From positions 1 through 64,000 of the IMG/VR virus record IMGVR_UViG_3300028654_000384: a DNA stretch of 64,000 nucleotides. One strand, written 5' to 3'. This document shows positions 5,948-43,266 of this stretch, piece after piece (positions within the stretch are counted from its first letter, which is position 1; every line of letters begins with the position of its first letter). The notes under the pieces were generated by a model. That model searched no databases and was not told the DNA's origin. It was given only the letters and a program-made list of their open reading frames with translations. The DNA comes from a virus. The position numbers and the translations under genes are program-made.

Positions 5948-5991
5948 TGCACCTACCGAACGTCGATCGGGCTTTCACGCTTGTAACCGCA

Positions 5992-5997
5992 TAGTTA
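5992..5997 (+). promoter_or_regulatory. Candidate late promoter element TAGTTA (sheath 1)
   Basis: The context is GCATAGTTATGC, 43 bases upstream of the first sheath gene, which has its own strong AGAGGAG ribosome-binding site at about 6021. The position in an 87-base intergenic gap supports a promoter. Confidence 0.45.
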
Positions 5998-6034: not shown

Positions 6035-9000
6035 ATGTCCGCACAAACGTTTCAATCACCCAACTTCTTCGCTCGGGAGATCGATAAGTCTGCACCCGTT
6101 CCACAGGGGCCTGTCGGTGTTCCAGCAGGAGTGATCGGCACTTCTGATAGGGGCCCGGCCTTTGTCCCGGTCACTGTCGGTAATTTCGATCAATTCATCT
6201 CGACGTTTGGTAACCTCGATCCCAATTGCTTTGGGCCCTACGCTGCCTTCTACTTCTTGGCCAACCGCAGCGCGCTGACCTTCATGCGCGTCCTCGGGGC
6301 GGGTGCTAACCAGAGCAGCTCCGACATTACGCGGACGTCGACGACGGGTCGCACCCTGAGCGCCGGCTTTCACCTCGACGGCGTGTCGCCGGCAGTGACG
6401 GGTGACAATCGCCACACGGGCATCGTTCAGTTCATCGTGGGCGTGCACACCCTGCAGCCCAATGAGGCATACGGCGCCGCCATCTTCACCGACAATGATT
6501 CCTTCCACGGTTCGACCGTCCGCCTCGTTCGCGGCATGATCATGACGCCGCAGACGGCTCGCATCATGGTGACCGACGGCAACCACGACTTGTCGGCCGC
6601 TGGGCAGATCAGCAAGTTGGTCGACTTCGGTGACCTGACGAGCACGCCAGGTTACTTCAAGTTGGTCATCAGTTCATCGTTGGGTGCCAGCTTCTACAAC
6701 GACGACGGTAATCCAGGTTGCCGCATCTTGACGGCATCGCTCAATCCTGATGACTCGCGTTACTACGCCAAGTTGTTGAACACCAACCCCGACAGCTTCG
6801 TCCTCTACCAGCACCTGCTCTATGCAGACTTTGCCGTCGACGACGAGATTGCGACGGCCACGGTCGCCGGCATCCTGTCAGGAACTGCCAACACCAGCCT
6901 CAATAACTCCGACACTGCATACGCCGGCGCGCCCTACAACGACAAGTCGACGTACCTGTCATCGTTCGGCGCCTTCGATGCGCGGTTTCAGACGCCGACG
7001 TCGACGTACTTCATCAGTCAACCCTTCGGTAATACCGAGTACGATCTGTTCGCGGTGCAGGCCCTCGATGACGGCGCCTTCGCCAGCGACCTGTACAAGG
7101 TGTCGATCGCCAACGTGCAGGCATCGACCAACCCCGCCTATGCATATGGCACCTTTTCGCTGCAGGTTCGTCAGTTCAATGACACCGACGTCAATCCCAT
7201 CATCCTGGAGCAGTTCAATCACCTGTCGCTCGATCCCACCGCGGACAACTACATTGCCGCCGTCATCGGCGACCGCCGCGTCACCTTCAATTTTGACTCC
7301 ACGTTGCAGGAGGATCGCAGGGTCATCACCAGCGGAAAATACCCGAACAACTCGACCACGATCCGCGTGGTGATGAATGACTCCGTCAACAAGGGACTGA
7401 TCCCGGCGATGGCACTGCCCTTTGGTTTCCGGGGCGCGCTGGTGCCCAAGACCAACGACACGCTGACGGACAACGCCTTCCAGGCGACCAACACCGTCCG
7501 CATCAACGGCATCTTGACGGGCAGCAACTTCGGGCAGCAGGCCCTCAGCGGTGCCATCGTGCCGCCCGTTCCCTACCGCAGCAAGGTGACGAAGGGTGCA
7601 CGGCCCTCGCCGCAGCTGTGGTTGGGCCAACCAGGCCCGGCCGAGCTGTCGAGCCCGCTGTACTACTGGGGTACGCAGTTCGAGCGCCTTGACATACCGC
7701 TCGATCCGAACAATGAATCCATTCCCAACCCGTTGATCGCGTCCTACTCGCAGTTCTTGGGCATCGCCGCCCTCGACAACCTGGTCACCGGGTCAGGTGC
7801 TGACACCCTCAACAACGACAAGTTCAGCCTCAAGAAGGTTGCCTTCTCTAACCTCAGCATCAATGACCTGACGGCGTCGATCGACACTCACATGCGAGAG
7901 GCGGCTTACATCCGCAACGGTCGCAACGACGGCGCGCAGTACACTATCAACGACGGCGTCCTGGGCAGTAGGATCACCCTCGCGACGCTGTTGGCCAAGG
8001 GCACCGCACAGCAGTTCAATCGCTTTTCGCCCTACTTGAAGTTCACCAACTTCCTGCAGGGGGGCTGGGACGGCGTCAACATCCTCGATCCCAATGCCAA
8101 GCGGCTCAATGATCGATCGACCAGCTTCGATGCCGGTGGGCAAGCGGCCGCAGGCTTCATCAGCCCGGGTTTCACCGCACTGAATCAGGCGGGCTCGGGC
8201 CAGAACAACTCGGCGGTGCAGTCGTACCTCACTGCCATCAACGTGATGACGGATCCCATGCAGGCCAACCACAACATTCTGGTGATACCCGGCATTCGTG
8301 AACCCTTCATCACCGATTATGCTGGGACGGCGATCCGCAACTACGGCCTGGCCTACTACATCATGGACCTGCAGAAGTTCGATGAATTCAGCACTCGCTT
8401 GTTCAACGACTCGACGGGATCAGCAGGTGGTCCGGCACGGCCCGACGTGCAGCAGACGGCGACGGGTCTCAACACTCGCGCCCTCGACAACAACTACGTG
8501 GGTACCTACTTCCCCGACGTCATTGTCACCGATAAGTTCAACAACCGTCGGGTCAAGGTGCCGTCGTCAGTCGCCGCACTGGGGGCACTGGCCTTCAATG
8601 ACCGCGTCGGCTACCCGTGGTTCGCTCCGGCGGGCTTCAATCGTGCCGCACTCGACTTCGTCAACAATGTCGAGGTGAGGTTGAATGCGTCGGACAAGGA
8701 CGTGCTGTACAGCAGCAGGATCAATCCGATTGCATCGTTCCCTCGACAGGGGTTCGTCATCTTCGGTCAGAAGACGCTGCAACAGTCAGCATCGGCTCTC
8801 GACCGTGTCAATGTCAGGCGCCTGTTGCTCGAGGTCAAGCGCGTCATCGTCGGCATCGCCATGAAGTTGGAGTTCGAGAACAACACTCCCGACGTGTGGA
8901 ATAAGTTCACGTCGCAGGCGGTGTTGCAGTTGGGCCTGATTCAGGCGGCAGCGGGCATCGAGGCCTTCCAGGTCGTCATGAATGAGACCAATAATTCAGG

Positions 9001-9115
9001 TGATGATCGTGACCAGAACAAGCTGAACGGCAGAATCGTAGTTGTGCCCACGCGCGTGATTGAATTCATCGCGTTGGATTTCATTATCACGAATTCCGGC
9101 GTTCAATTCGTCTAA
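6035..9115 (+). CDS. Tail sheath protein 1
   Basis: This 1,026-residue contractile sheath subunit polymerises around the tail tube and contracts at infection. The N-terminus has the sheath signature PVGVPAGVIGTSDRGPAFVP followed by a V-x-N-F-x-x-F-x-x-x-F-G element. The conserved C-terminal domain includes GYPWFAPAGFNRA, YSSRINPIASFP, FGQKTLQQSASALDRVNVRR and a final strand pair ending FIALDFIITNSGVQFV. It is longer than T4 gp18 (659 residues), so large surface insertions are expected in the middle. ATG start with a strong AGAGGAG site. It is followed by a GIY-YIG endonuclease and then by a second full-length sheath paralogue; both copies look intact. Confidence 0.93.
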   Translation: MSAQTFQSPNFFAREIDKSAPVPQGPVGVPAGVIGTSDRGPAFVPVTVGNFDQFISTFGNLDPNCFGPYAAFYFLANRSALTFMRVLGAGANQSSSDITRTSTTGRTLSAGFHLDGVSPAVTGDNRHTGIVQFIVGVHTLQPNEAYGAAIFTDNDSFHGSTVRLVRGMIMTPQTARIMVTDGNHDLSAAGQISKLVDFGDLTSTPGYFKLVISSSLGASFYNDDGNPGCRILTASLNPDDSRYYAKLLNTNPDSFVLYQHLLYADFAVDDEIATATVAGILSGTANTSLNNSDTAYAGAPYNDKSTYLSSFGAFDARFQTPTSTYFISQPFGNTEYDLFAVQALDDGAFASDLYKVSIANVQASTNPAYAYGTFSLQVRQFNDTDVNPIILEQFNHLSLDPTADNYIAAVIGDRRVTFNFDSTLQEDRRVITSGKYPNNSTTIRVVMNDSVNKGLIPAMALPFGFRGALVPKTNDTLTDNAFQATNTVRINGILTGSNFGQQALSGAIVPPVPYRSKVTKGARPSPQLWLGQPGPAELSSPLYYWGTQFERLDIPLDPNNESIPNPLIASYSQFLGIAALDNLVTGSGADTLNNDKFSLKKVAFSNLSINDLTASIDTHMREAAYIRNGRNDGAQYTINDGVLGSRITLATLLAKGTAQQFNRFSPYLKFTNFLQGGWDGVNILDPNAKRLNDRSTSFDAGGQAAAGFISPGFTALNQAGSGQNNSAVQSYLTAINVMTDPMQANHNILVIPGIREPFITDYAGTAIRNYGLAYYIMDLQKFDEFSTRLFNDSTGSAGGPARPDVQQTATGLNTRALDNNYVGTYFPDVIVTDKFNNRRVKVPSSVAALGALAFNDRVGYPWFAPAGFNRAALDFVNNVEVRLNASDKDVLYSSRINPIASFPRQGFVIFGQKTLQQSASALDRVNVRRLLLEVKRVIVGIAMKLEFENNTPDVWNKFTSQAVLQLGLIQAAAGIEAFQVVMNETNNSGDDRDQNKLNGRIVVVPTRVIEFIALDFIITNSGVQFV

Positions 9116-9139
9116 CAGATCAACTGCTTGCATGTGGTG

Positions 9140-9145
9140 TATGAT
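9140..9145 (+). promoter_or_regulatory. TANNNT -10 element (TATGAT), near-leaderless
   Basis: TATGAT begins 11 bases before the ATG at 9151. The -35 region is weak (ATCAAC at 15 bp). No Shine-Dalgarno sequence is present. Confidence 0.4.
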
Positions 9146-9150
9146 GGATC

Positions 9151-9876
9151 ATGTTCATCATTTACAAGCACACTAACCGTTCCAACGGAAAGGTCTATGT
9201 TGGATACACTAAGTTTACACTTGATGAACGATGGAAACAGCATTGTAAAGATGCTCGACTAGGCAGTGACTTTGCTTTTCATCGGGCGATCCGCAAGCAC
9301 GGGTTAGATGTTTGGGATCACTGTGTCATCGAAGAGTGTATTGACCTCTCCGAAGAGCAGGTCGGAGCACGTGAGATGTATTGGATAGCCGAACTTGCAG
9401 CAACGACTGACAAGCATGGTTACAACATGACGCATGGTGGGTTAAGTCGTCTCACGGTGTGGACCGAAGAGATGCGAGAGTTTCACAGGGTTAGAACCAG
9501 TGAAGGTACCAAGTTGGCGTTTCAGGATCCTGAGATTAAGAAGCGTCACCAGGTAGCAACAAAGATCGCTAGCAATAAGCCTGAAAATCGGAAGCGCAAT
9601 AGTGATGCACAGAAGATTGCTCAGAACAAGCCTGATACCAAAGTTAAGCACGCAGCTTCAATAAAACGCGCGTGGGAAAATGAGCTTCCTACGTTGATTG
9701 CACGGAGAAAACTCATTGAGCAGCTTGATTTGGTCACGAAGGTTGTAATTGCTACGTTTAGATCAGCGCGCGAGGCAGCACGTGAATTAGGACTTAGTCA
9801 AGGTAGCATCTCTAACGTTGCACGTGGTTTGACTAAGTCTGCTGGTGGTTTTGGCTGGCGCTACGTCGTCGCTTAA
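9151..9876 (+). CDS. GIY-YIG homing endonuclease
   Basis: A 241-residue protein with a GIY-YIG nuclease domain at residues 1-95: IYK at 4-6, YVGYT at 16-20, Arg27, catalytic Glu75 in GAREMYWI and Asn92 in GYNMTHGG. A Lys/Asn-rich middle with NUMOD3-like repeats follows, then a C-terminal IENR1/NUMOD1 helix-turn-helix (SAREAARELGLSQGSISN) that binds DNA. Free-standing genes of this type copy themselves into alleles that lack them. It stands between the two sheath genes and is visibly more AT-rich than either. A TANNNT element begins 11 bases before the ATG. The N-terminal 30 residues are closely similar to those of the endonuclease after sheath 2. Confidence 0.92.
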   Translation: MFIIYKHTNRSNGKVYVGYTKFTLDERWKQHCKDARLGSDFAFHRAIRKHGLDVWDHCVIEECIDLSEEQVGAREMYWIAELAATTDKHGYNMTHGGLSRLTVWTEEMREFHRVRTSEGTKLAFQDPEIKKRHQVATKIASNKPENRKRNSDAQKIAQNKPDTKVKHAASIKRAWENELPTLIARRKLIEQLDLVTKVVIATFRSAREAARELGLSQGSISNVARGLTKSAGGFGWRYVVA

Positions 9877-9939
9877 TTACCCTCCACTTCCATATCTCGG
9901 GCCGTCAATTTTCGTGGCGATAGAACGTCGCTTTGGTGA

Positions 9940-9945
9940 TAGTTA
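9940..9945 (+). promoter_or_regulatory. Candidate late promoter element TAGTTA (sheath 2)
   Basis: The context is GTGATAGTTACATC, 23 bases before the ATG of the second sheath gene, with AAGGTG as a ribosome-binding site between them. It closely matches the GTGATAGTTA upstream of the tail tube and RNR genes. Confidence 0.45.
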
Positions 9946-9962
9946 CATCAAGGTGACTATCC

Positions 9963-12900
9963 ATGGCGCAACTTAAGTTCGGTTCTGCAGGTGTCTCGAC
10001 GACGGAGATTGACCTCTCACAGCCCACTTCACAGCAGCCTGTCGGAGTACCCGCCGGCATCATCGGCACCGCGCTGAAGGGCCCCGCCTTCGTGCCCATT
10101 ACCGTCGGAGTGATCGACGACTTCTACGCCAAGTTCGGTCTCACTGACGGCAAAAAATTCGGGCCCATCGCCGTCTCCGAATGGCTCCGCAATGCAGGCG
10201 CCGTCACTTACCTTAGGGTCCTCGGAGTTGGCGACGGCACCACGCGCCAGACCAACGGCGACGTCAACTCGGCAGGCTTCACCGTCGGTGAACAGCAACC
10301 CAACGCGACCAACGCAGGCAGCCTGGGTTCCAATCCCTACTCCAACGTCGGCGGTGCCCTGGGTCGCACCTACTTCTTGGGCGCCTTCATGGCCGAGACG
10401 TCGGGTTCCACGTTGTTCAGCCAGGCCGGCATCAATGCTGACGTCGCGGCCTTCACCGCGGCCCCCATCGTCCGCGGCGTGCTGATGGCCACGTCGGGCG
10501 TCATCCTGACGCTGTCGTCGTCGGTGTCAGGCGTCAACAGTGCCCCTGCCTCGAACACTGCGGTGGCCACCGATGCCGTAGGCTCGCCCCTCGGCGACGT
10601 CGTCTTGATGACCAGCGGCATTGCCCGTCAGGACTTCGTGCTGCTGATCAACGGCCTGACCAACACCAATCCGCTGTTCCCGAATGTCATCACCGCATCG
10701 TTCGACATGACGGCACCCAACTACTTTGGCAACGTCCTCAACACTAACCCGCTCAACCTGTCGCAGGCCGGTTACTGCCTCTACGCAGGTTGGGACATTC
10801 ACCCGTCGACGGCCGTCGTCACCGGGTCAGGCATCGTGTCGACCAAGTACGGTGCAGGGGCGGCCACGGTCTTTGCCGCCGGCATCGAGCCTTCGGCCTT
10901 CTTGTTGACGAGTTCGCTGGCACGTGACACGGGTAACTCACAGGTGCCTGATTACGAGGACTTCCGCGATCGTTTTAGTCACGCGCGCAGCTCGTGGGTC
11001 GTCAGCCAGCCCTTCGGCGGCCAGCCTCACAACCTGTTCCGCGTCCATGCCCTCGACGACGGCCACTACGCCTCTACTCTCTACAAGCTGTCGATCGAAA
11101 ATCTGGCTTATTCGTCGGATCCCACCAACCTGTACGGTAGCTTTGACCTCGTCCTACGCCAGTGGGGCGACAATGACCTGGCACCCACCTACATTGAACA
11201 GTGGCGTGGCCTGTCGCTCAATCCGTCTGACTCACGCTACATTGCGCAGGTCATCGGTGACATGAATGCCTACTTTGACTTCGATCGTGGGCCCACCGCA
11301 CAGAAGCTCGTCATCAATGGCAACTATCCGAACGCGTCCAACTACGTCCGCATTGAGATGGATGCCAACGTCGACGCCGGTGAAGTCGATCCGACGGCGC
11401 TGCCCGTCGGCATCCGTGGCGCCCGCCACCTCATCACTGCGGGGTCAGGCACCCTGGCCGCGCCGACCAATCGCATCGTGTCGGGTAGCAACAATGAACT
11501 GTTGATCAGCTCGACCGTTGCCTTTGCGTCGACGGTCGAGCCGCCGGTGCCGATGCGACAGAACTTGACGCAGGGGTCGGGCGCCAAGTTGCAGGTGCAG
11601 CCGCTGTTGTACTGGGGCGTGCAGTTTGAACACGTGCCCGCCGTCGCCACGCCCAATGCGACGTCGCAGCCCAACAATTCATTGAAGTCGTTCGCCAAGT
11701 TCTTCCCCGAGATGAGGACGGACATTCAGAACTTCCGGGTGGGTGATAACCCGGGTGCAGTCACCAGCGCCGGCGCCGTCGTCGACGCCGACAAGTTCAA
11801 TCTCAACATGTTCACCCTGATGAACGTGCAGGTCGTCACCAACTCGGCGGGCACCGCCGATCCCAACCAGTGGGTCAATGCAACCTACGTCCGCAATGGC
11901 AACATTGTTACCAACAACGTCGCGGCAACGCGGGCCTTGCTGACGACGGACTTCATTCAGGCCAACCGCCGCTTCTTGAAGTGGTCGTTCTTCATGCAGG
12001 GTGGTTTCAGCGGCGTCAACATCTTTGACAACGACGAGGCGACACTCTCTAACGCCGCCGTCGAGGCCGACATGAATGCGACCAACCGCGGCTTCAACGT
12101 GGGCCCGACAGTGTCGGCCTACGCCAAGGCTTTGCAGGTGATGGGCGACGTCGCCGGCGTCGACATCGAGCTGTTGGCCGTCCCGGGCATCAGGCACCCC
12201 GTCGTCACCGACAATGCGATCGCGACGGTTGAGCAGCGCTTTGACGCCCTGTTCATCATGGACATTGAACAGTACGATGTCAGCAATCAGGCAGTGACGT
12301 CGGACAGCCAGCAACCGTCGGTGACGCTGACGGCGGCCAACTTCGCCTCCCGTGCCGTCAACAGCAGCTTCGGTGCCGCCTACTTCCCCGACGTGGTGAT
12401 GCCCGATCCCAACACCGGCACCAACCTGTACGTGCCGCCGTCGGTCGCCGTCCTGGGAGCACTGGCCCTCAACGATGCAGTGGGTCACCCGTGGTTCGCT
12501 CCGGCGGGTTTCACTCGCGGAGCGCTGCAGACGACGCTTGAGGCCCGTGTCAAGCTGTCGAAGACCAACATGGACGTTCTGTACGATGTCAACGTCAATC
12601 CGATCGTTGCCTTCCCGGGCAACGCGACGGGGGGTACCAACCCGAAGGGTGGAGTGGTCGTATGGGGTCAGAAGACTTTGCAACAGGCGGCATCGGCCCT
12701 CGACCGCGTCAACGTTCGTCGCCTGCTGATTGAGATCAGGCGGCAGGTCAGGGACATCTCCAACACTGTCATATTTGAGCCCAACCGCGACGCTACGTTG
12801 GCGGCTTTCTCGGCCGCCGTCACTCCGGTCCTTCAAAGGATCCAGGCACAGGCAGGTCTCGAGCGCTTCAAGGTCGTCATCGACAGCAGCACCACGTCTC

Positions 12901-13013
12901 AGCTCGATGTAGAAAATAACACAATTCGTGGAAAAGTGTTTGTCATCCCGACGAAGAGCATCGAGTATGTTAGCATTGACTTCATCGTGACCAACGCGCT
13001 CAACCAACAGTAA
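9963..13013 (+). CDS. Tail sheath protein 2 (paralogue)
   Basis: A 1,016-residue full-length sheath paralogue. The N-terminus QPVGVPAGIIGTALKGPAFV and the C-terminus (HPWFAPAGFTRGAL, WGQKTLQQAASALDRVNVRR, YVSIDFIVTNALNQQ) match sheath 1 region by region, while the middle is strongly diverged. All conserved blocks are present, so both copies can probably assemble. The gene has its own TAGTTA element and AAGGTG site, which allows separate dosage. A tail of two different sheath subunits, or alternative sheaths, are both possible. Long antisense frames over it are codon-bias shadows. Confidence 0.92.
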   Translation: MAQLKFGSAGVSTTEIDLSQPTSQQPVGVPAGIIGTALKGPAFVPITVGVIDDFYAKFGLTDGKKFGPIAVSEWLRNAGAVTYLRVLGVGDGTTRQTNGDVNSAGFTVGEQQPNATNAGSLGSNPYSNVGGALGRTYFLGAFMAETSGSTLFSQAGINADVAAFTAAPIVRGVLMATSGVILTLSSSVSGVNSAPASNTAVATDAVGSPLGDVVLMTSGIARQDFVLLINGLTNTNPLFPNVITASFDMTAPNYFGNVLNTNPLNLSQAGYCLYAGWDIHPSTAVVTGSGIVSTKYGAGAATVFAAGIEPSAFLLTSSLARDTGNSQVPDYEDFRDRFSHARSSWVVSQPFGGQPHNLFRVHALDDGHYASTLYKLSIENLAYSSDPTNLYGSFDLVLRQWGDNDLAPTYIEQWRGLSLNPSDSRYIAQVIGDMNAYFDFDRGPTAQKLVINGNYPNASNYVRIEMDANVDAGEVDPTALPVGIRGARHLITAGSGTLAAPTNRIVSGSNNELLISSTVAFASTVEPPVPMRQNLTQGSGAKLQVQPLLYWGVQFEHVPAVATPNATSQPNNSLKSFAKFFPEMRTDIQNFRVGDNPGAVTSAGAVVDADKFNLNMFTLMNVQVVTNSAGTADPNQWVNATYVRNGNIVTNNVAATRALLTTDFIQANRRFLKWSFFMQGGFSGVNIFDNDEATLSNAAVEADMNATNRGFNVGPTVSAYAKALQVMGDVAGVDIELLAVPGIRHPVVTDNAIATVEQRFDALFIMDIEQYDVSNQAVTSDSQQPSVTLTAANFASRAVNSSFGAAYFPDVVMPDPNTGTNLYVPPSVAVLGALALNDAVGHPWFAPAGFTRGALQTTLEARVKLSKTNMDVLYDVNVNPIVAFPGNATGGTNPKGGVVVWGQKTLQQAASALDRVNVRRLLIEIRRQVRDISNTVIFEPNRDATLAAFSAAVTPVLQRIQAQAGLERFKVVIDSSTTSQLDVENNTIRGKVFVIPTKSIEYVSIDFIVTNALNQQ

Positions 13014-13014
13014 C

Positions 13015-13043
13015 GTGAACAGCCTGCCCGTGCAGGTTAAGAT
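13015..13043 (+). promoter_or_regulatory. Promoter GTGAAC-17-TAAGAT
   Basis: A sigma70-like pair with a 17-base spacer. The predicted transcript begins about seven bases before the ATG of the endonuclease at 13057. It starts just past the sheath 2 stop codon. Confidence 0.6.
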
Positions 13044-13056
13044 GAACTAACACCAC

Positions 13057-13848
13057 ATGTTCATCGTCTACAAGCACATCAATCGAGTCAACGGCAAAGT
13101 GTACATCGGTTACACAGCCAATGGGGTCGATGAACGTTGGCGTGGGCACTGTTATGCCGCTTCTTCAGGTGAGGAGCTCGTGTTTTCGCATGCAATTAGA
13201 AAGTACGGTGTAGATGCCTTTGCACATGATGTGTTAGAGACATGTGCGACAAAGCAACAAGCGTGTGAGGTTGAAATTCGATTGATCGCCGAACACAACA
13301 CCATGGTTCCGCACGGCTATAATATGACACACGGTGGTGAGCGTCGGGTCGGAGAATGGAATCCGATGGCCAAACTCACCGAAGATGATGTCCTTACGAT
13401 CAAGAATACGTGGAACACTCTGCGGCTCGATAATGCGGACGTAATTGGTGACTTCTATCGTCGCTTTGCTCAGAAGTTGAGTGTGACTGCAGACTTGATC
13501 TGTCAAATCATCAAGGGACGATTGTGGTCTCATGTTGGACCTGAACTTGTGAATGTCAACGTGAGTCACCGCGGCAAGGGCAAAGCTGCAGGTGAGAAAA
13601 TGAAGCAACGATGGGCCGACGCGGAGTTCCATGAAGTGCAATCACTCAAGCGCCGCGGCGAAAATAACGGTAGATCAGTGGTGACCGAAGACATTGTCAG
13701 GGCACTGCGCCTTGAGTTCGATCAGCTTGATACGAGCACTAAAGGTGTTACCAAGTCGTTCTGCGTGAAGCATGGTGAACGTCTCGGCGTGACCAGTGAG
13801 AACATCTATGGCATCGTCAAGCGCAAGTCGTGGAAAAACGTCGTCTAA
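13057..13848 (+). CDS. GIY-YIG homing endonuclease (second copy type)
   Basis: A 263-residue protein with a GIY-YIG domain at residues 1-93: VYK at 4-6, YIGYT at 16-20, Arg28, Glu73 and Asn89 in GYNMTHGG. The rest is a helical DNA-binding region; two segments with the pattern of a NUMOD-type helix-turn-helix (VTSENIYGIVKRKSWKNVV at the end) are visible. It starts like the endonuclease at 9151 (MFI-YKH-NR-NGKVY-GYT) but its C-terminal half is unrelated, so the DNA specificities probably differ. It directly follows sheath 2, mirroring the arrangement after sheath 1. Confidence 0.9.
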   Translation: MFIVYKHINRVNGKVYIGYTANGVDERWRGHCYAASSGEELVFSHAIRKYGVDAFAHDVLETCATKQQACEVEIRLIAEHNTMVPHGYNMTHGGERRVGEWNPMAKLTEDDVLTIKNTWNTLRLDNADVIGDFYRRFAQKLSVTADLICQIIKGRLWSHVGPELVNVNVSHRGKGKAAGEKMKQRWADAEFHEVQSLKRRGENNGRSVVTEDIVRALRLEFDQLDTSTKGVTKSFCVKHGERLGVTSENIYGIVKRKSWKNVV

Positions 13849-13895
13849 TCCTGCGCTACGTCACCTAACGCGTGAGAATGTGCGGGTGCCGACCA

Positions 13896-13901
13896 TACTT
13901 A
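13896..13901 (+). promoter_or_regulatory. Candidate late promoter element TACTTA
   Basis: The context is ACCATACTTACTCCTC; the motif begins exactly 12 bases before the ATG at 13908. If it is a -10 element, the mRNA is leaderless. Confidence 0.45.
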
Positions 13902-13907
13902 CTCCTC

Positions 13908-14195
13908 ATGAAGCTATCGGCACTGCGCCTTGTCGTCCGCGAAGAGTTGTCCCGTCTCAACGAGGTTTCCTTCGCACAGGCGGGTGCCGATCAGCCCCTG
14001 ACGCAGTTCATCAAGCACCTCAACATGGCCAAGGCCGACCTGAATGAGCTGTTTCAACAGACGACTGACACCAAGGCCGGCAATACGGCGACGAAGCTGC
14101 TCAACCAGCTCAACGCCATCATCCTGTCGCTCGACCATGCACCTGAACTGACGAAGAACCCGTTCGCCGACGCGGGACGAAAGGCACGCCGATGA
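13908..14195 (+). CDS. Small protein with capsid-targeting-like N-terminal tag
   Basis: The 95-residue reading starts at the ATG at 13908; upstream in-frame codons overlap the TACTTA element and are unlikely to be coding. The N-terminus MKLSALRLVVREELSRLNE belongs to the tag family found in at least ten other proteins of this window, with (L)-N-E as a possible prohead-protease site. The remainder is helical (KHLNMAKADLNELFQQTTD). It overlaps the next tagged gene by ATGA. By analogy with T4 internal proteins it may be packaged in the head; that is inference. Confidence 0.65.
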   Translation: MKLSALRLVVREELSRLNEVSFAQAGADQPLTQFIKHLNMAKADLNELFQQTTDTKAGNTATKLLNQLNAIILSLDHAPELTKNPFADAGRKARR

Positions 14196-14557: not shown

Positions 14558-16213
14558 TCAGTAACTGATCTCGTAGGTCAGGTTCTTGCAACCGTAGATC
14601 CTGACGACGCCCGCTTCTTGTGCGACTTGTGCTTCTGTCAATCCCCGCGACTTATCAGCCTTGTACTTGAAGCGATTGAAGCGGTGATTGAAGTCCGTCC
14701 ACCAAAAGCGAGGTGGTGATTCACCTGTCTGGTGCCACCCTGCAGATGACCAACTGTTTGACGCACCCAAGCGGGTGTCGACGTATGACAATAGCCTTTG
14801 GCATCCCAGCTCTTTGGCCCTTGCTTGGGCACTCGATGTCAGCCTGCTCAACGCCCCGGGCACGTTGGTGCCAACCTTAGTGCAGAAGCGGGCAATTTCG
14901 AGGGCACCCTGGTGTTTCTTGTGCAGTGGCGTACGTATTGATAGTGCGGTGATGATTTCACCATTGTGACTCAATCCCAGTGCCCACGATGCCTGTGTGT
15001 CGCCGTCAATGTGATTGCGAGTGAAGAAAGATCTACGTTCAGCAGTATTGAGCTCGACGATGCTGCACTTGCGTGCTCCGACCATTACAGGCGTCAGGCC
15101 CAATCGGTGCGAGATCATAGATTCAACGATCGATCGCTTGTCACGCCACTCATCTTCAAAGACGTGGAGCAGGGTGATGCCCTTCGCTCTACACAGGTCG
15201 GTCTTGTTCTGGTGGTAGATCGCCGACTTGTGGACGATGCTGTGCCAGTAGAGGCCGTTGTACTCGATCGCTAGCGACACAGCAGGCACGAAGATGTCGA
15301 GCTCGAGTCCCTCGATCTGACCGCGATCGTTGGTGGTGATGTCGCTCGTCAATTCCCTGACATAGTTCGCAACGTCCTGTTGCCCTCGGCTACCACCGGG
15401 ATCACAGGCATAGCACCGTCCGTGTTGCAGGCGCCTGAGCGAGCTCGTCCACTGGACCCCGCACTGTGAGCATGCGACTTCAATATTGCTTGTCTTGTCG
15501 TCGACGTATGAATTTAGGCTGTCATTGATCACGCGCAGCGTGGTGCCTTCCTCGATGCGGACCTTGACGTCATCGACCTTCAATCTCTTCATGTCGTCGA
15601 GGTGTTGCCTGAGCTTGGCCTGTGAGTGAGCCAGCGAGACCTTCGCTGCCATGTCCTTGATCCTCTGATCATTCTCCTTGTTCAGGCCTTTGGCCCAGGG
15701 CGTCAGTTCGCCCGAAGCAAAGCGTCCACGTTGATTGTCAGCGAATTCTTGTAGCCTCGAGTCAGTCTCCTTGGTCAGGCCCTTCGACCACGCGACGATG
15801 GTACCCGCATCGAATGCTGCCTGGCGACCCACGCTGGTGGCTTGAGCGCGAGCTGCGACGCGCTCGTCAGTTTCCTTGGTCAGGCCCTTTGACCAACTCT
15901 CTTTACCTACGAGCTTCTCACGTCGTTTTTGTGAGATCTCCTCGGCTTTATCGGCGTCGTACAATGCGTAGATGTTGCCATTGTGGCCGCGCAGTAGGTT
16001 GCCATAGCCTTGTCGCCAACCCAACCATGTGGTGACTTGTTGGCACCCACAGGCACATAGCTTGGGACCTGAATTGAGCTCATTCCATAACGTTTGTGAA
16101 GACGTCTGGTGTGCTGTGGTCAGGTGGGTCTCAAAAGTTGTCTGGCGCTTCGATGAGAATGAACTGCACAGTGGACAAGTGATGGGTTCGACTGTCTGAC
16201 CTAGTTGTGCCAT
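14558..16213 (-). CDS. Vsr/EDxHD-like homing endonuclease with zinc fingers
   Basis: A 551-residue protein on the minus strand, opposite to nearly all neighbours. The N-terminus has a C2H2-like finger (Cys13, Cys16, His30, His35) and a CACGC cluster at 53-57. Next come three repeats of the NUMOD3-like type WSKGLTKETD (near 107, 142 and 173), a zinc ribbon (Cys248, Cys251, Cys267, Cys270), then a Vsr-like nuclease core with GLELDIFVP at 302-310 and IEYNGLYWHS at 316-325 and a downstream FEDEWRDK. This matches the EDxHD homing nuclease family (I-Bth0305I type). It shares this architecture and many motifs with the plus-strand gene at 16883, on the other side of the tail tube gene. Confidence 0.85.
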   Translation of the reverse strand: MAQLGQTVEPITCPLCSSFSSKRQTTFETHLTTAHQTSSQTLWNELNSGPKLCACGCQQVTTWLGWRQGYGNLLRGHNGNIYALYDADKAEEISQKRREKLVGKESWSKGLTKETDERVAARAQATSVGRQAAFDAGTIVAWSKGLTKETDSRLQEFADNQRGRFASGELTPWAKGLNKENDQRIKDMAAKVSLAHSQAKLRQHLDDMKRLKVDDVKVRIEEGTTLRVINDSLNSYVDDKTSNIEVACSQCGVQWTSSLRRLQHGRCYACDPGGSRGQQDVANYVRELTSDITTNDRGQIEGLELDIFVPAVSLAIEYNGLYWHSIVHKSAIYHQNKTDLCRAKGITLLHVFEDEWRDKRSIVESMISHRLGLTPVMVGARKCSIVELNTAERRSFFTRNHIDGDTQASWALGLSHNGEIITALSIRTPLHKKHQGALEIARFCTKVGTNVPGALSRLTSSAQARAKELGCQRLLSYVDTRLGASNSWSSAGWHQTGESPPRFWWTDFNHRFNRFKYKADKSRGLTEAQVAQEAGVVRIYGCKNLTYEISY

Positions 16214-16289
16214 GGTTGATTATACGTATCCACCTATTCTTGTATAGTGCACTTGAGTGAGTTTTAGGTCATAATCCTAGATGACGTGA

Positions 16290-16295
16290 TAGTTA
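16290..16295 (+). promoter_or_regulatory. Candidate late promoter element TAGTTA (tail tube)
   Basis: The context is GTGATAGTTAGCC, 47 bases before the tail tube ATG, with a GGAG ribosome-binding site at about 16328. It lies in the gap behind the divergent endonuclease gene. Confidence 0.45.
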
Positions 16296-16336: not shown

Positions 16337-16825
16337 ATGGCCGAAACGCTCGACGTGACAAGCATGCTTCCCAACAAATTCGAACCCAAGCGCAAGAACC
16401 GTTGGGTGCTCCAGATTGAAGGCGTTGACGCCTACATCATCAAGACGGCCGCGCGGCCCACGGTGACGACGGAGCCCGTCGAGATTCCCTTCATCAACAG
16501 CCGCCGTTACTTGGCCGGGCTGACGAAGTACGGCACCATCGCCGTCACCTTGCACGATCCCATCGCACCGTCGGGCGCGCAGCAGGTGATGGAGTGGGTG
16601 CGACTGCACTTCGAGAGCGTGTCGGGTCGGTCGGGCTACGCCGACTTCTACAAGCGTGACATTCAGCTGAAACTTCTCGATCCCGTTGGGACGGTGGTGG
16701 AGTTATGGGATGTTAAAGGTGCGCTGATCACCGAGGCCAACTTCGGTGAACTCACCTATGAAGACGGCACCCCTGTCGAGATCGCTCTCACTATTCAGGC
16801 GGATCAGTACGTTTTGCAGTTCTAA
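16337..16825 (+). CDS. Tail tube protein (gp19-like)
   Basis: A 162-residue protein. I chose the ATG at 16337 because GGAG lies just upstream; an ATG at 16325 is also possible. The pattern MLPNKFEPKRKNRWVLQIEG, then ISSRRY-like NSRRYLAGLTKYGTIAVTLHDPI, then a terminal strand ADQYVLQF is the standard layout of small T4-like tube proteins (T4 gp19 is 163 residues). It forms the stacked hexamer rings inside the sheath. It is bracketed by two homologous homing endonucleases in opposite orientations. Confidence 0.88.
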   Translation: MAETLDVTSMLPNKFEPKRKNRWVLQIEGVDAYIIKTAARPTVTTEPVEIPFINSRRYLAGLTKYGTIAVTLHDPIAPSGAQQVMEWVRLHFESVSGRSGYADFYKRDIQLKLLDPVGTVVELWDVKGALITEANFGELTYEDGTPVEIALTIQADQYVLQF

Positions 16826-16846: not shown

Positions 16847-16876
16847 TTGTACAACTTACGTGGGTCGTGGTACAAT
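16847..16876 (+). promoter_or_regulatory. Promoter TTGTAC-18-TACAAT, leaderless
   Basis: TACAAT begins exactly 12 bases before the ATG at 16883, so the predicted +1 is the A of the start codon. There is no Shine-Dalgarno sequence. Confidence 0.65.
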
Positions 16877-16882
16877 TGTGCC

Positions 16883-18538
16883 ATGGCCTACGATCGTTTA
16901 AAGTGTCAGCTGTGTGCCAAGGACTTCGGCCAAGAGGTTGGCTTCCTGCGCCATGTCGCCGACGTTCATGGACTACAACCCGACGAAGAACTTTACGTCA
17001 CGTGGACACTCGTACCTGCAGTCAAGCCCACCTGTGCCTGTGGTTGTGGCCAAGTCGTCAAGTGGAATGGGTGGAAAAAGGGGTACACGTCGAAGTACCT
17101 GCGGGGTCACAACGCTGCATCCGACACCGTCTTTGCCGATCCCGTTCGCGCAAAGGAGTTCGCAGAGAAACGCGCGAAAGGCTACGCCGACGGCAAGTAC
17201 TCGTCGTGGAACAAGGGCCTGACCAAGGAGAATGATCCACGCATTCAGGTGATCGCTGACAAGATCTCCGCATCGCTGATCGAGGGCTACGCTTCAGGGT
17301 CGATCGTTGACTGGCACGCGCTCGATCCTGATAAGGCCCGTGCCGCGGTAGCAAAGCAGTCAGCGACGAAGGCAGCTCGGTTCGCGTCAGGTGAATTGGT
17401 GCCGTGGAACAAGGGTGAAACGAAAGAGACCAATCCGATCATTGCTGCCGCAGCGGTGAAGATTGCCGCGCAGTACACACGCCCCAATGCCGGCGCGCGC
17501 ATCAAGCTCGACCAGGTGAAGGAGCGGATTGACGCACACGCTGACAAGTTCACCGCCGTGTCTGACCTGAGCGAGTACACGACTCGTCGCGTTGCTCGGC
17601 TCAAATTTCGCTGCACTGTCTGCGGCACCGAACAGAGCAAGAGCCTCGCCATGCTCGAGGAGTGTCCCGTCTGCTTCACCTGTCACCCGAAGGAGTCGAA
17701 GGGTCAACTCGAGGTCTACGACTTCGTCAAGGCGCTGTCACCCGACGCTGTGCTGTCAGATCGCACCGTCATCGCTCCACTAGAGCTCGACGTCTTTGTC
17801 CCCTCGCACAAGTTGGGCATCGAGTACAACGGCCTTTACTTCCACAGTGCCGAGTGCCTCACTGACCCGAACTATCACCAGCGCAAGCTCGAGGCCTGTC
17901 TCACCGCCGGCATCAACCTGTTTTCCGTCTACGAGGACGAGTGGCGTGATCGCCGGCCCATCATCGAGGCCATGATCCGTCACCGCCTGTTGTCACCCAC
18001 CGTCACCTACCACGCTCGTAAGTTGTCGGTCGTCGAGCTACCAACCGCTCAGGCTCGTGCCTTCTTTGACGCCAACCACCTCGAGGGCTATGCACGGTCG
18101 TCGGTCACCCTCGGCCTCGTCGATACCAAAGATGGTGTGGTCGCCGCCATGGCACTGCGCAGGCCCTTTCACCGAGGCCATGCCTCATCATACGAGGTGT
18201 CGCGGTGCTGTGCCAAGTTGGGCACCTCTGTCCGCGGTTGGCTGGGCAAGTTGACGACGCGTGCCGCGGGGTGGGCCGCCGAACGGGGTTCGGTGCAGCT
18301 GATGACCTACGTCGATGCTCGTGTCGGCAGGGGCACGGGCTATGAAGCGGCGGGTTGGCAGCTGGTCAAGGCATCGACGGGCATCCGCTTCTGGTGGACT
18401 GACTTCGATCACCGCTACAACCGCTTCAAGTTCAAGGCCGACAAGGCTCGAGGCATGACGCAGGCCCAAGTCGCTGATGAGGCAGGCGTCGTCCAGATCT
18501 TCGGCTGCACCAACTCATCATGGCGTTACGTGATCTGA
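16883..18538 (+). CDS. Vsr/EDxHD-like homing endonuclease with zinc fingers
   Basis: A 551-residue protein. The start at 16883 is fixed by the leaderless promoter; an upstream in-frame codon at 16847 lies inside the promoter. Layout: N-terminal finger Cys8/Cys11/His24/His29, CACGC cluster, NUMOD3-like repeats (WNKGLTKEND, PWNKGETKETN), a zinc ribbon (CTVCG, CPVC, C-H-P-K), then a Vsr-like core with LELDVFVP, IEYNGLYFHS and YEDEWRDR, and a C-terminal half ending FWWTDFDHRYNRFKFKADK. It is a clear paralogue of the minus-strand gene at 14558-16213. Confidence 0.86.
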   Translation: MAYDRLKCQLCAKDFGQEVGFLRHVADVHGLQPDEELYVTWTLVPAVKPTCACGCGQVVKWNGWKKGYTSKYLRGHNAASDTVFADPVRAKEFAEKRAKGYADGKYSSWNKGLTKENDPRIQVIADKISASLIEGYASGSIVDWHALDPDKARAAVAKQSATKAARFASGELVPWNKGETKETNPIIAAAAVKIAAQYTRPNAGARIKLDQVKERIDAHADKFTAVSDLSEYTTRRVARLKFRCTVCGTEQSKSLAMLEECPVCFTCHPKESKGQLEVYDFVKALSPDAVLSDRTVIAPLELDVFVPSHKLGIEYNGLYFHSAECLTDPNYHQRKLEACLTAGINLFSVYEDEWRDRRPIIEAMIRHRLLSPTVTYHARKLSVVELPTAQARAFFDANHLEGYARSSVTLGLVDTKDGVVAAMALRRPFHRGHASSYEVSRCCAKLGTSVRGWLGKLTTRAAGWAAERGSVQLMTYVDARVGRGTGYEAAGWQLVKASTGIRFWWTDFDHRYNRFKFKADKARGMTQAQVADEAGVVQIFGCTNSSWRYVI

Positions 18539-18574: not shown

Positions 18575-19012
18575 ATGCAGCTCACCGAACGTCACCTCCG
18601 CGACCTCATCGGTCAGGTCATCACTGAAGCCAAGGGCAAGGATCGCGGCGCCGACGCTGCCAAGCAGGTGGCTGATGCTATCAAGGTGCTCATCACGGTG
18701 GGCCCCAAGGTCGAGAAGTACTTTGAGGAGAAGTTGTCTATGATGACGACGATCCCCGCTATGTTCTCTGACGAGCTCGAAGTAGAACATGTTGTCGACA
18801 AACTGCGTAATCTCATTGATAAGGCGGTGGAGCTCGACGATGTCGTGGTGCCTGTATACAAGGCCGCCGCAAAGGCTGCGCCCAAGGCTCCCACCCGCGA
18901 CCGCTCTCGCGGCCGCCTGGCCAACGCCAATCCTACCGCCGACGAGCGTTCACTGGGACTAAACAAGCGTCGTGAAATTCGGCGTCAGGCACGTGAGCGT
19001 GGTCGGACCTAG
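18575..19012 (+). CDS. Tagged small protein with basic C-terminus
   Basis: A 145-residue protein starting MQLTERHLRDLIGQVITEAKG, a member of the tag family whose I-T-E|A would suit a prohead protease. The middle is helical and amphipathic. The last 45 residues are Ala/Lys/Arg-rich (KAAAKAAPKAPTRDRSRGR, ending RQARERGRT), as expected for a DNA-associated protein. A head-packaged DNA-binding internal protein would fit the tag, the basic tail and the late-type motif; this is inference. Confidence 0.65.
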   Translation: MQLTERHLRDLIGQVITEAKGKDRGADAAKQVADAIKVLITVGPKVEKYFEEKLSMMTTIPAMFSDELEVEHVVDKLRNLIDKAVELDDVVVPVYKAAAKAAPKAPTRDRSRGRLANANPTADERSLGLNKRREIRRQARERGRT

Positions 19013-19319: not shown

Positions 19320-19325
19320 TATGAT
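19320..19325 (+). promoter_or_regulatory. TANNNT -10 element (TATGAT)
   Basis: It is preceded by TGACAC at 18 bp. The predicted start at 19332 gives a short leader containing GAGGAA before the ATG at 19348. Confidence 0.45.
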
Positions 19326-19347
19326 GACCATTGAACGAGGAATGCAC

Positions 19348-20217
19348 ATGTCAGACGAACGTGAACAGCGTAACCAGGTCTTTGCAGCGGCGCCCACCGC
19401 CGGCGTCGATGCGCGGATCCCGACTCAATCGGCCGTAGACAAGTTCAAGGCCGACTTCGGCATTGACATCCCGACGGAGACAGTGCCCCTGCCGTCGAAT
19501 GGCAAGGTCTACCCGCCGGCGTCGCCGCTCCACAATCAGGAGACGGTCGACATTCTACCCATGACGGCCCGCGAAGAGGACATCCTGACCAGCCGCGCCC
19601 TGATGAAGAAGGGCACCATCCTCAGTGAACTGATCAAGTCGTGCCTCGTCAACAAGGCCATCGACCCGCTCGACATGCTGATCGGTGATCGGACGGCAAT
19701 CATGGTCGCCATCCGGATCACGGGCTACGGCGCCGACTATGACACCGAAGTCGAGTGCAATGAGTGCCAGAACAAGTCGCCCAAGCCCTTTAACTTGGGT
19801 GAACTGCCCATCAGGCGCTTGGCACTGACACCTGTCGCCGACGGCCTCAACTTGTTTGAGTTCACGTTGCCGCTGACCAAGAAGGTGATCAGGTTCAAGT
19901 TCCTGACGGGCCGCGATGAGGAGCAGATCACGGCGACGGCGGACAGGCAGAAGAAGCTAAACCTACAGTCCGACGCGACGGTGACGACCAACCTGTTGTA
20001 CTGCATTCAGGCCATTGACGGCATCGAGGATCGGGCCAAGATCGCCTCCTTCGTCAGGATGATGCCCGCGCGGGACTCACTGGCGCTACGTAGCTATATC
20101 CGCGACAACGAACCCGGCATCATCATGCGGCAGGAGGTGACGTGCCCGTCCTGTGGATGTACGGAGGTGATCTCGATGCCAATTGGGATTACGTTCTTTT
20201 GGCCTGGCTCCAAGTGA
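19348..20217 (+). CDS. Baseplate hub assembly chaperone, gp26-like (T4 base plate protein family)
   Basis: A 289-residue protein. The start at 19348 follows GAGGAA; longer in-frame starts overlap the promoter. The order LPSNGKVYPP, then PMTAREEDILTSRALMKKG, then DRTAIMVAIRITGYGADYDT and a zinc ribbon (CNECQNKSPKPF with CPSCGC near the C-terminus) is that of the family Pfam names T4 bacteriophage base plate protein (PF12322; T4 gp26/gp51 region). These are needed for baseplate hub assembly. The downstream small gene overlaps it, as in related phages. Confidence 0.8.
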   Translation: MSDEREQRNQVFAAAPTAGVDARIPTQSAVDKFKADFGIDIPTETVPLPSNGKVYPPASPLHNQETVDILPMTAREEDILTSRALMKKGTILSELIKSCLVNKAIDPLDMLIGDRTAIMVAIRITGYGADYDTEVECNECQNKSPKPFNLGELPIRRLALTPVADGLNLFEFTLPLTKKVIRFKFLTGRDEEQITATADRQKKLNLQSDATVTTNLLYCIQAIDGIEDRAKIASFVRMMPARDSLALRSYIRDNEPGIIMRQEVTCPSCGCTEVISMPIGITFFWPGSK

Positions 20218-35921: not shown

Positions 35922-36146
35922 ATGGCACAGGAATTCAATCCCGGTGATCAAGTTAAACACTTGTCAGGTGGACCTGTAATGACGGTTGACTATTGCAACG
36001 GCACCGCAGCTACTTGTTCATGGTTCGATCATAAAAGTGGTAAGTTTGAAACAGCGACACTCAGGAAAATAGCTCTCAAACTTCATGTGGAAGAGCATCA
36101 ACCTGTCGTCCTACAAGACGACGGATACAAGTGGCCGACGGACTAA
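35922..36146 (+). CDS. YodC-like DUF2158 small protein
   Basis: A 74-residue protein. The pattern FNPGDQVKHLSGGPVMTVDY then ATCSWFDHKSGKFETATL is that of the DUF2158/YodC family (SGGP-MTV and C-WF signatures). The family is found in many bacteria and phages and has no established biochemical role. It has an AAAGAGG ribosome-binding site and a strong promoter. It is followed three bases later by a homing endonuclease. Confidence 0.8.
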   Translation: MAQEFNPGDQVKHLSGGPVMTVDYCNGTAATCSWFDHKSGKFETATLRKIALKLHVEEHQPVVLQDDGYKWPTD

Positions 36147-36149
36147 TCG

Positions 36150-37082
36150 GTGCTGATTACCAAGCTTTCCGCCACGCGTGCACTATGTGCGTGTGATGTT
36201 TGTGGCACAGAAATTGTTCGTTCATTCAACCGTATGGGTGAACTGCAATTCTGTACACGTGCATGCATGACTTCAGCGCGGAAAGCTGGTGGTGTTCTAC
36301 AACGGAAGACCGAAGCTACAGCACTTACAAAGTACGGTGTCACGAACGTAGCAAAATCAGTTCTCATCAAGGAACAGACGAAGCAAACGTGCATGGTGCG
36401 CTATGGTGTCTCAGCACCTGTGTTATCGCCTGAGATTGATGCCAAACGTCGCAAGACGCTTGAAGAGCGGTATGGTGTTGATCAGACGTTCAAGTCTACT
36501 GATGTGCGTGCCAAGTCTCGTGATACCAAACTTGAACGGTATGGTGAGGAATGGCCTGCTAAATTAGACGCCACGAAGCAAAAAGTGATAGAGACGAACA
36601 TGGAGCGTTACGGCGTTCCAAGTCCCTTTAGTCTCGGATCACCCTTTCGCAGCGCTGATGATTGTAGTAAAGGGGGACAGGTTAGCTATCGTGCTCAAGG
36701 ACTTAAGGCGGGTGGCGAAGGGTTCTTATCGAAACCTGAACTTCAGTTACGTGATCTATTGGTTGAACAGTTCGGCGTTGAAGATGTTGATCAACAAGTT
36801 GTGGTGCAACACGGCGTTCGAAAACCTTGGTTGATCGACTTCTATGTCAAGTCAATTGACACCTACGTGCAATCAGACGGCGTCTATTGGCATGGGCTTG
36901 ATAGGGCATATAATGAACTGCATCCGGATGCACAGAAGACGTATGATCACGATAGACAGCAAGATCAATGGTTCGTGAACAATGGACGACGTCTGATTAG
37001 GATTACTGACAAGCAAGTGAAAGAGTGGATGAAGACGGGATCCGCGTCAGATGCGCTGAAGCAGATTCTTCTTCAACGGTAA
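36150..37082 (+). CDS. Vsr/EDxHD-like homing endonuclease with RYGV repeats
   Basis: A 310-residue protein with a GTG start. N-terminal zinc-binding segment (CACDVCGTE and FCTRAC), then four repeats of the form KYGVTNVAKS, RYGVSAPVLS, RYGVDQTFKS and RYGVPSPFSL, known from phage homing endonucleases as DNA-binding repeats. The C-terminal nuclease core has WLIDFYVKSIDTYVQSDGVYWHG, with catalytic Asp and His positions like Vsr-type enzymes, then QQDQWFVNNGRRLIRITDKQ. It lies between the DUF2158 gene and the SSB gene. Composition is more AT-rich than the SSB gene after it. Confidence 0.82.
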   Translation: MLITKLSATRALCACDVCGTEIVRSFNRMGELQFCTRACMTSARKAGGVLQRKTEATALTKYGVTNVAKSVLIKEQTKQTCMVRYGVSAPVLSPEIDAKRRKTLEERYGVDQTFKSTDVRAKSRDTKLERYGEEWPAKLDATKQKVIETNMERYGVPSPFSLGSPFRSADDCSKGGQVSYRAQGLKAGGEGFLSKPELQLRDLLVEQFGVEDVDQQVVVQHGVRKPWLIDFYVKSIDTYVQSDGVYWHGLDRAYNELHPDAQKTYDHDRQQDQWFVNNGRRLIRITDKQVKEWMKTGSASDALKQILLQR

Positions 37083-43212: not shown

Positions 43213-43266
43213 TGCTGATCATCACCCGAACTTTGCGCAAACCCTAAACCCGGGCAAGTTGCGTGA

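Follow-up and report, generated by a model that had tools for sequence, protein, structure and literature searches.

We analyzed the first 64,000 bases (hereafter the window) of IMGVR_UViG_3300028654_000384, a 215,857-base virus record of an uncultured giant phage, and focused on a locus at which two tail sheath genes lie in tandem and each is followed by a gene for a GIY-YIG endonuclease. These genes are listed below with their lengths in amino acids (aa).

6035..9115, + strand: S1, tail sheath protein 1, 1026 aa (uninterrupted open reading frame (ORF), profile match, fold match)
9151..9876, + strand: E1, putative GIY-YIG free-standing homing endonuclease, 241 aa, with a NUMOD1 / I-HmuI-like tail
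9963..13013, + strand: S2, tail sheath protein 2, 1016 aa (uninterrupted ORF, profile match; weak structural model)
13057..13848, + strand: E2, putative GIY-YIG free-standing homing endonuclease, 263 aa (domain match, translation)

A first-pass annotation of this DNA had described two intact, diverged sheath genes of 1,026 and 1,016 residues, each followed by an endonuclease, and had stated that both sheaths keep all conserved blocks. All four ORFs are indeed uninterrupted at these places, and S1 and S2 are 34% identical from end to end (E = 2e-164), with 129 positions conserved in both. In profile searches, the two proteins matched tail sheath PHROG 23 (E = 8.5e-49 and 5.8e-52, respectively), both contained the Pfam sheath C-terminal domain PF17482 above the cut-off, and the profiles of both matched T4 gp18 and the Afp and Pvc sheaths. 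By profile, S1 and S2 are members of the contractile tail sheath family (gp18), and they are the only sheath matches in the 215,857-base record. Structures were predicted from alignments without a row from a reference phage record. The model of S1, with a mean predicted local distance difference test score (pLDDT) of 67.5, matched solved sheaths at Z 12–18 over residues 11–1006.

Two scans of viral contigs yielded 46 related loci (designated by L numbers), and a wider profile scan was added later. In the first two scans, 37 distinct contigs reach both genes, and all 37 have the S1–S2 tandem, usually with a spacing of 22–266 bp. The wider scan yielded approximately 29 more contigs covering both genes, again all with the tandem. 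Exactly two sheath matches were present in each of three records of 309, 236, and 140 kb. In a first tree of 77 sheaths, a check that the first-pass annotation had suggested, S1 and S2 formed sister clades, each with 100% support in the Shimodaira–Hasegawa-like approximate likelihood ratio test. The sister group of the pair in a second, wider tree has one sheath only (~950–1,030 aa), and the S1–S2 pair therefore stems from one duplication after that split. These results show that S1 and S2 arose by a single old tandem duplication in the ancestor of a large uncultured phage group. No record in the phage collection covers 80% of S1 or S2, and the group has no close isolate there. An attempt to name the host from binned contigs was abandoned, because relatives were found in metagenome-assembled genomes of Halobacteriovorax, Methylococcaceae, and Flavobacteriales, and misbinning is too likely.

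Several other sheath arrangements were observed among the collected contigs. L210 (2883-6405) and L218 (1367-5521) represent two more independent tandem sheath duplications, each pair being closest to itself, and the S1 side of L174 shows an extra duplication or conversion. Two tandem 824-aa sheaths ~1 kb apart are encoded by an uncultured phage of 484 kb (LR756508; L054:4020-9983); these sheaths fall outside the S1 and S2 clades on long branches and with unsure placement. In one branch (L039, L044, L095, L096, and L166), S2 carries ~130 to 500 extra in-frame residues, near residue 160 where examined.

The divergence of the two sheaths was compared across 13 loci with both genes complete. Pairwise identity averaged 57.1% among the S1 proteins and 56.9% among the S2 proteins, and the S1 distances closely tracked the S2 distances (correlation 0.947, slope 0.98). 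The ratio of nonsynonymous to synonymous substitution rates (dN/dS) was ~0.07–0.23 for both genes in pairwise comparisons where it was estimable, many pairs being saturated at synonymous sites. Relaxed selection on one of the sheaths, which the first-pass annotation had named, together with absence of that protein from particles, as a refuting observation, was thus not observed. Equal divergence combined with strong purifying selection indicates that neither copy is decaying, and neither S1 nor S2 looks redundant. In addition to the positions conserved in both proteins, we found 35 fixed differences, 56 positions conserved in S1 only, and 41 conserved in S2 only. From this divergence pattern, the two sheaths are probably not interchangeable.

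The GIY-YIG domain PF01541 was detected above the cut-off in E1 and E2, with the Arg, His, Glu, and Asn positions known from I-TevI. E1 could be aligned to I-TevI residues 5–92 with retention of R27, H31, and the Glu and Asn, and the same motifs were recognized in E2 by reading of its translation. The tail of E2 contains a tandemly repeated module of ~63 residues. As expected of free-standing homing endonucleases, each occupies its own ORF between conserved genes and is missing from most relatives. When the E1 ORF is subtracted, the gap between S1 and S2 measures 35 + 86 = 121 bp, compared with 120 and 123 bp in the endonuclease-free gaps of L021 and L013, respectively. Only a few relatives (L010, L011, L035, and L023) have endonuclease-like ORFs in the S1–S2 gap, which is empty in most, and L009 and L029 contain truncated endonuclease remnants there. 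Empty, filled, and decayed states together are the cycle expected of a homing gene. The GC content falls at both the E1 and E2 insertions. On these grounds we regard E1 and E2 as putative free-standing, site-specific homing endonucleases that were inserted after the sheath duplication. Judging from the Seg enzymes of phage T4 and from the sequence patterns, each endonuclease would cut the matching region in phages without it and would then be copied in by repair, and neighboring sheath sequence would be dragged along with it. The DNA-binding tail would fix the insertion site, and catalytic domains appear to have moved between endonucleases resident in the same phage.

Two further ORFs were noted beside sheath genes. 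The S1–S2 gap of L048 (964-2091) contains a 375-aa ORF with a match to a terminase N-terminal domain and no endonuclease, and in Pseudomonas phage MIJ3 (L084:4002-5618) an HNH homing endonuclease directly follows the sheath gene.

The two parts of the endonucleases have different histories. Identity between E1 and E2 is 53% over 94 catalytic-domain residues and 26% over the remainder, so that the "near-identical opening" described in the first-pass annotation was overstated, whereas its observation of differing C-terminal halves was confirmed. The same annotation had named enzymes unrelated beyond the GIY-YIG core as a refuting observation; the tails of E1 and E2 are barely related. In L023, both sites are occupied by an endonuclease. 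Its enzyme in the S1–S2 gap matches E1 in the tail (35%, z 14), and its enzyme after S2 matches the tail of E2 (44%, z 30). Tails hence group by site, and other groupings were rejected by approximately unbiased (AU) tests (p about 1e-4). The catalytic domains favor grouping by phage, and grouping by site was rejected (p = 0.03). An exchange of catalytic domains is likely in L023 and may have occurred between E1 and E2. We also considered a single endonuclease clade for each site, which was rejected. The enzymes in the S1–S2 gap of L010, L011, and L035 are nearer to E2 than to E1, and the sites have therefore been invaded more than once. Accordingly, of the earlier proposal of two homing events into paralogous sites, the two events are supported, but one enzyme acting at equivalent paralogous sites is not, because each DNA-binding tail belongs to its site.

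A possible trace of homing was found in the comparison of L010 with L011. These contigs are identical over 235 bp upstream of S1 and share 98–100% identity through nt 450–1950 of S2, whereas most of S1 has diverged to 65–93% identity and the endonuclease genes are only 49% identical at the DNA level. The stretch of high identity begins at the 3' end of the endonuclease. It is possible that this mosaic arose by replacement of a sheath allele together with the endonuclease, which its pattern would fit.

A recurrent motif lies upstream of most of the sheath genes. NATA[ACG]TTA occurs within 100 bp upstream of 18 of the 22 S1 genes and 25 of the 35 S2 genes, against a background of 0.03 per 100 bp. 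In the window, the stricter GATASTTA has six occurrences, all on the plus strand, compared with an expectation of 0.74 for both strands together. Copies of the looser motif at 5990, 9938, 13894, 16288, and 18559 precede S1, S2, an ORF at 13914, the tail tube gene, and an ORF at 18575, respectively. The motif copies and the further features of this region are as follows.

5990..5997, + strand: late-promoter-like motif CATAGTTA, 37 nt before the start of S1
9128..9145, + strand: leader TTGCATGTGGTGTATGAT, immediately 5' of E1
9938..9945, + strand: late-promoter-like motif GATAGTTA, 17 nt upstream of S2 and untouched by the E1 insertion
13894..13901, + strand: late-promoter-like motif CATACTTA, preceding the small ORF at 13914
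14558..16213, − strand: large homing endonuclease, 551 aa, PHROG 3339, between the genes 3' of S2 and the tube gene
16288..16295, + strand: late-promoter-like motif GATAGTTA, upstream of the tube gene
16337..16825, + strand: tail tube protein, single copy (ATG at 16337 taken as start, not GTG at 16286)
16847..18538, + strand: second large homing endonuclease, 563 aa, PHROG 3339
19321..20217, + strand: baseplate hub protein, the next conserved gene of the tail cassette

We infer that the motif would function as a late promoter. E1 and E2 were each inserted between the stop codon of a tail gene and the motif of the next gene, disturbing neither, and each of the four endonuclease genes in this region is bounded by a tail-region gene on one side and by the next motif copy on the other. 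Further GATASTTA copies on the plus strand, off the tail cassette, are located at 43265, 45864, and 61714. The leader TTGCATGTGGTGTATGAT has a near-identical copy in front of a different endonuclease in L011. It was considered as a repeated element and dismissed, as it occurs once in the whole genome.

The array of homing endonucleases extends past position 13848 with the two PHROG 3339 genes, whose products are 39% identical. These opposed, paralogous large endonucleases flank the tube gene, and the same layout is seen in L025 and L027. At 36135-36641 lies part of another PHROG 3339 endonuclease, which is interrupted by a stop codon and appears to be decayed. The tail cassette is of the T4 type, with a gp15-like gene upstream, followed by the sheaths, tube, and hub; a head-tail adaptor gene accompanies the gp15-like gene upstream of the cassette in the 215,857-base record. 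A patatin-like phospholipase gene is also located upstream (597-1466). The tube protein shares 62–88% identity with that of 24 other loci. No second tube gene that could pair with the two sheaths was found; the tube gene was located in 26 loci, and in each of these a single copy lies 3' of the sheaths.

The best overall explanation, to which we assign a probability of about 0.62, is a two-component sheath with later, site-specific, free-standing homing endonucleases. The locus has the features that define such a sheath at the gene level, namely two full-length sheath paralogues in one phage that are both conserved. The tail sheath would be built from two paralogous subunits, S1 and S2, which are kept side by side under equal selection. 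Both appear to retain sheath-typical residues and end segments, comprising the conserved C-terminal core, which would contact the tube, and the terminal arms, which would link subunits. Since core and arms are retained in both proteins, S1 and S2 would most likely polymerize around the single tube protein, in comparable amounts. A more specific form of this model is rather doubtful. It assumes an obligate heteropolymeric S1/S2 sheath of fixed proportion, with endonucleases that drive sheath-allele replacement while swapping catalytic domains. If it were true, selfish genes would reshuffle tail machinery between phages.

Several observations weigh against the two-component sheath and its history of homing as proposed here. 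The two-component reading is derived from gene sequences, and equal rates of S1 and S2 need not mean that the two proteins are equally abundant or assemble together within a tail. The predicted S2 model is a weak one: its mean pLDDT is 54, and its best Z of 10.6 covers residues 335–999 only. The fold assignment of S2 therefore depends mainly on sequence. After outgroups were added to the catalytic-domain tree, the L023 pair held (support 92/88), but the grouping of E1 with E2 was weakly supported (60/57). The L010/L011 mosaic represents one pair of metagenomic contigs, for which ordinary recombination or chimeric assembly is possible. Finally, the viral collection contained no strain of this phage without E1; L007, L008, and L020 turned out to be identical fragments of this very phage.

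Alternatively, the two sheaths may be regionally specialized, with one paralogue forming nearly all of the sheath and the other confined to a small number of special rings, either at the baseplate or at the neck. We consider this possible, if only tentatively. Several sheath proteins are known in PVC and AFP injection systems (PMC8894135; separate Pvc2/3/4 and Afp2/3/4 chains), and S1 and S2 each have their own set of conserved positions. However, Afp2–4 differ in size (354–451 aa), whereas S1 and S2 are nearly equal in length and rate, which is a weak argument against such specialization. It is very unlikely that tails are equipped with one sheath or the other, for example depending on condition or host. 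The late-promoter-like motif upstream of each sheath gene would make separate control possible, but the same motif type serves S1, S2, and the tube gene, the tandem order is strict, and constraint is equal in all lineages.

The remaining explanations concern the origin and fate of the copies. The first-pass annotation had suggested duplication of a sheath-endonuclease unit, as the order S1-E1-S2-E2 looks repeated, and the similarity of the E1 and E2 catalytic domains would agree with this. Nevertheless, the idea is hardly credible and the least probable of those considered, because the sheath duplication predates the family, most members have no endonuclease in the S1–S2 gap, this gap is of normal length without E1, and the barely related tails of E1 and E2 are closer to the same-site enzymes of L023 than to each other. 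That one sheath is a decaying or redundant copy is highly improbable as well. Only the existence of two copies speaks for it, while the low dN/dS of both genes, their equal divergence, and the lack of any loss in contigs covering both places argue against it.

Two-component sheaths are already known from Pseudomonas phage PaBG and its relatives; the PaBG sheath paralogues gp76 and gp213 were both found in the virion proteome and were ascribed to gene duplication (PMC7412058). PaBG resembles the present phage in having two full sheath paralogues, which are 38% identical in PaBG compared with 34% for S1 and S2. However, the PaBG genes are ~119 kb apart on the record and encode proteins of ~530–550 aa, whereas S1 and S2 are adjacent and comprise ~1,020 aa. 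The PaBG pair forms its own clade and was duplicated independently of S1–S2. A shared duplication event was tested for and not found, and the two cases are thus of the same kind but not of the same family. Two sheath genes have also been recorded for Alexandravirus (PMC9686651), a survey of sheath evolution noted two copies in some phages (PMC9230969), and injection systems with several sheath proteins have been described (PMC8894135). AFP (Afp2-4) and PVC (Pvc2-4) likewise have several paralogous sheath genes per system, and their C-terminal domains match S1 and S2 by profile. Unlike S1 and S2, these proteins belong to injection systems, not phages, are of unequal size, and are distant in sequence. 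The locus is not part of an AFP/PVC-type injection system, as it lies in a virus record with head-tail adaptor and gp15-like genes. The gp15-like, sheath, tube, and hub genes and the sheath fold predicted for S1 resemble those of T4 (gp18 / gp19 cassette), but T4-type cassettes have a single sheath gene followed by the tube gene, whereas two sheath genes are present here.

Free-standing Seg and Mob endonucleases of T4 also sit between conserved genes (PMC2988022). Like Seg (GIY-YIG) and Mob (HNH) enzymes, E1 and E2 combine an I-TevI-related catalytic domain and a separate DNA-binding tail with patchy occurrence and decayed copies. They differ in that their sites flank paralogous sheath genes, in the apparent sign of catalytic-domain exchange between residents of one phage, and in that their activity is putative. 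What is new is thus a separate, tandem, and widespread case of two sheaths, together with the detail of its endonucleases.

Our findings imply that two-part sheaths are not a curiosity of PaBG, since a large uncultured group has long kept such a pair and the trees contain further independent sheath duplications (PaBG, L210, L218, and one in L174). The E1/E2 region is a naturally occurring example of intronless homing in which the same site can be empty, filled, or decayed and in which the endonuclease tails differ in history from the catalytic domains. If the sheath is a contracting helical lattice made of two kinds of subunit, it would be informative about sheath firing and about the way in which duplicated lattice proteins become interdependent.

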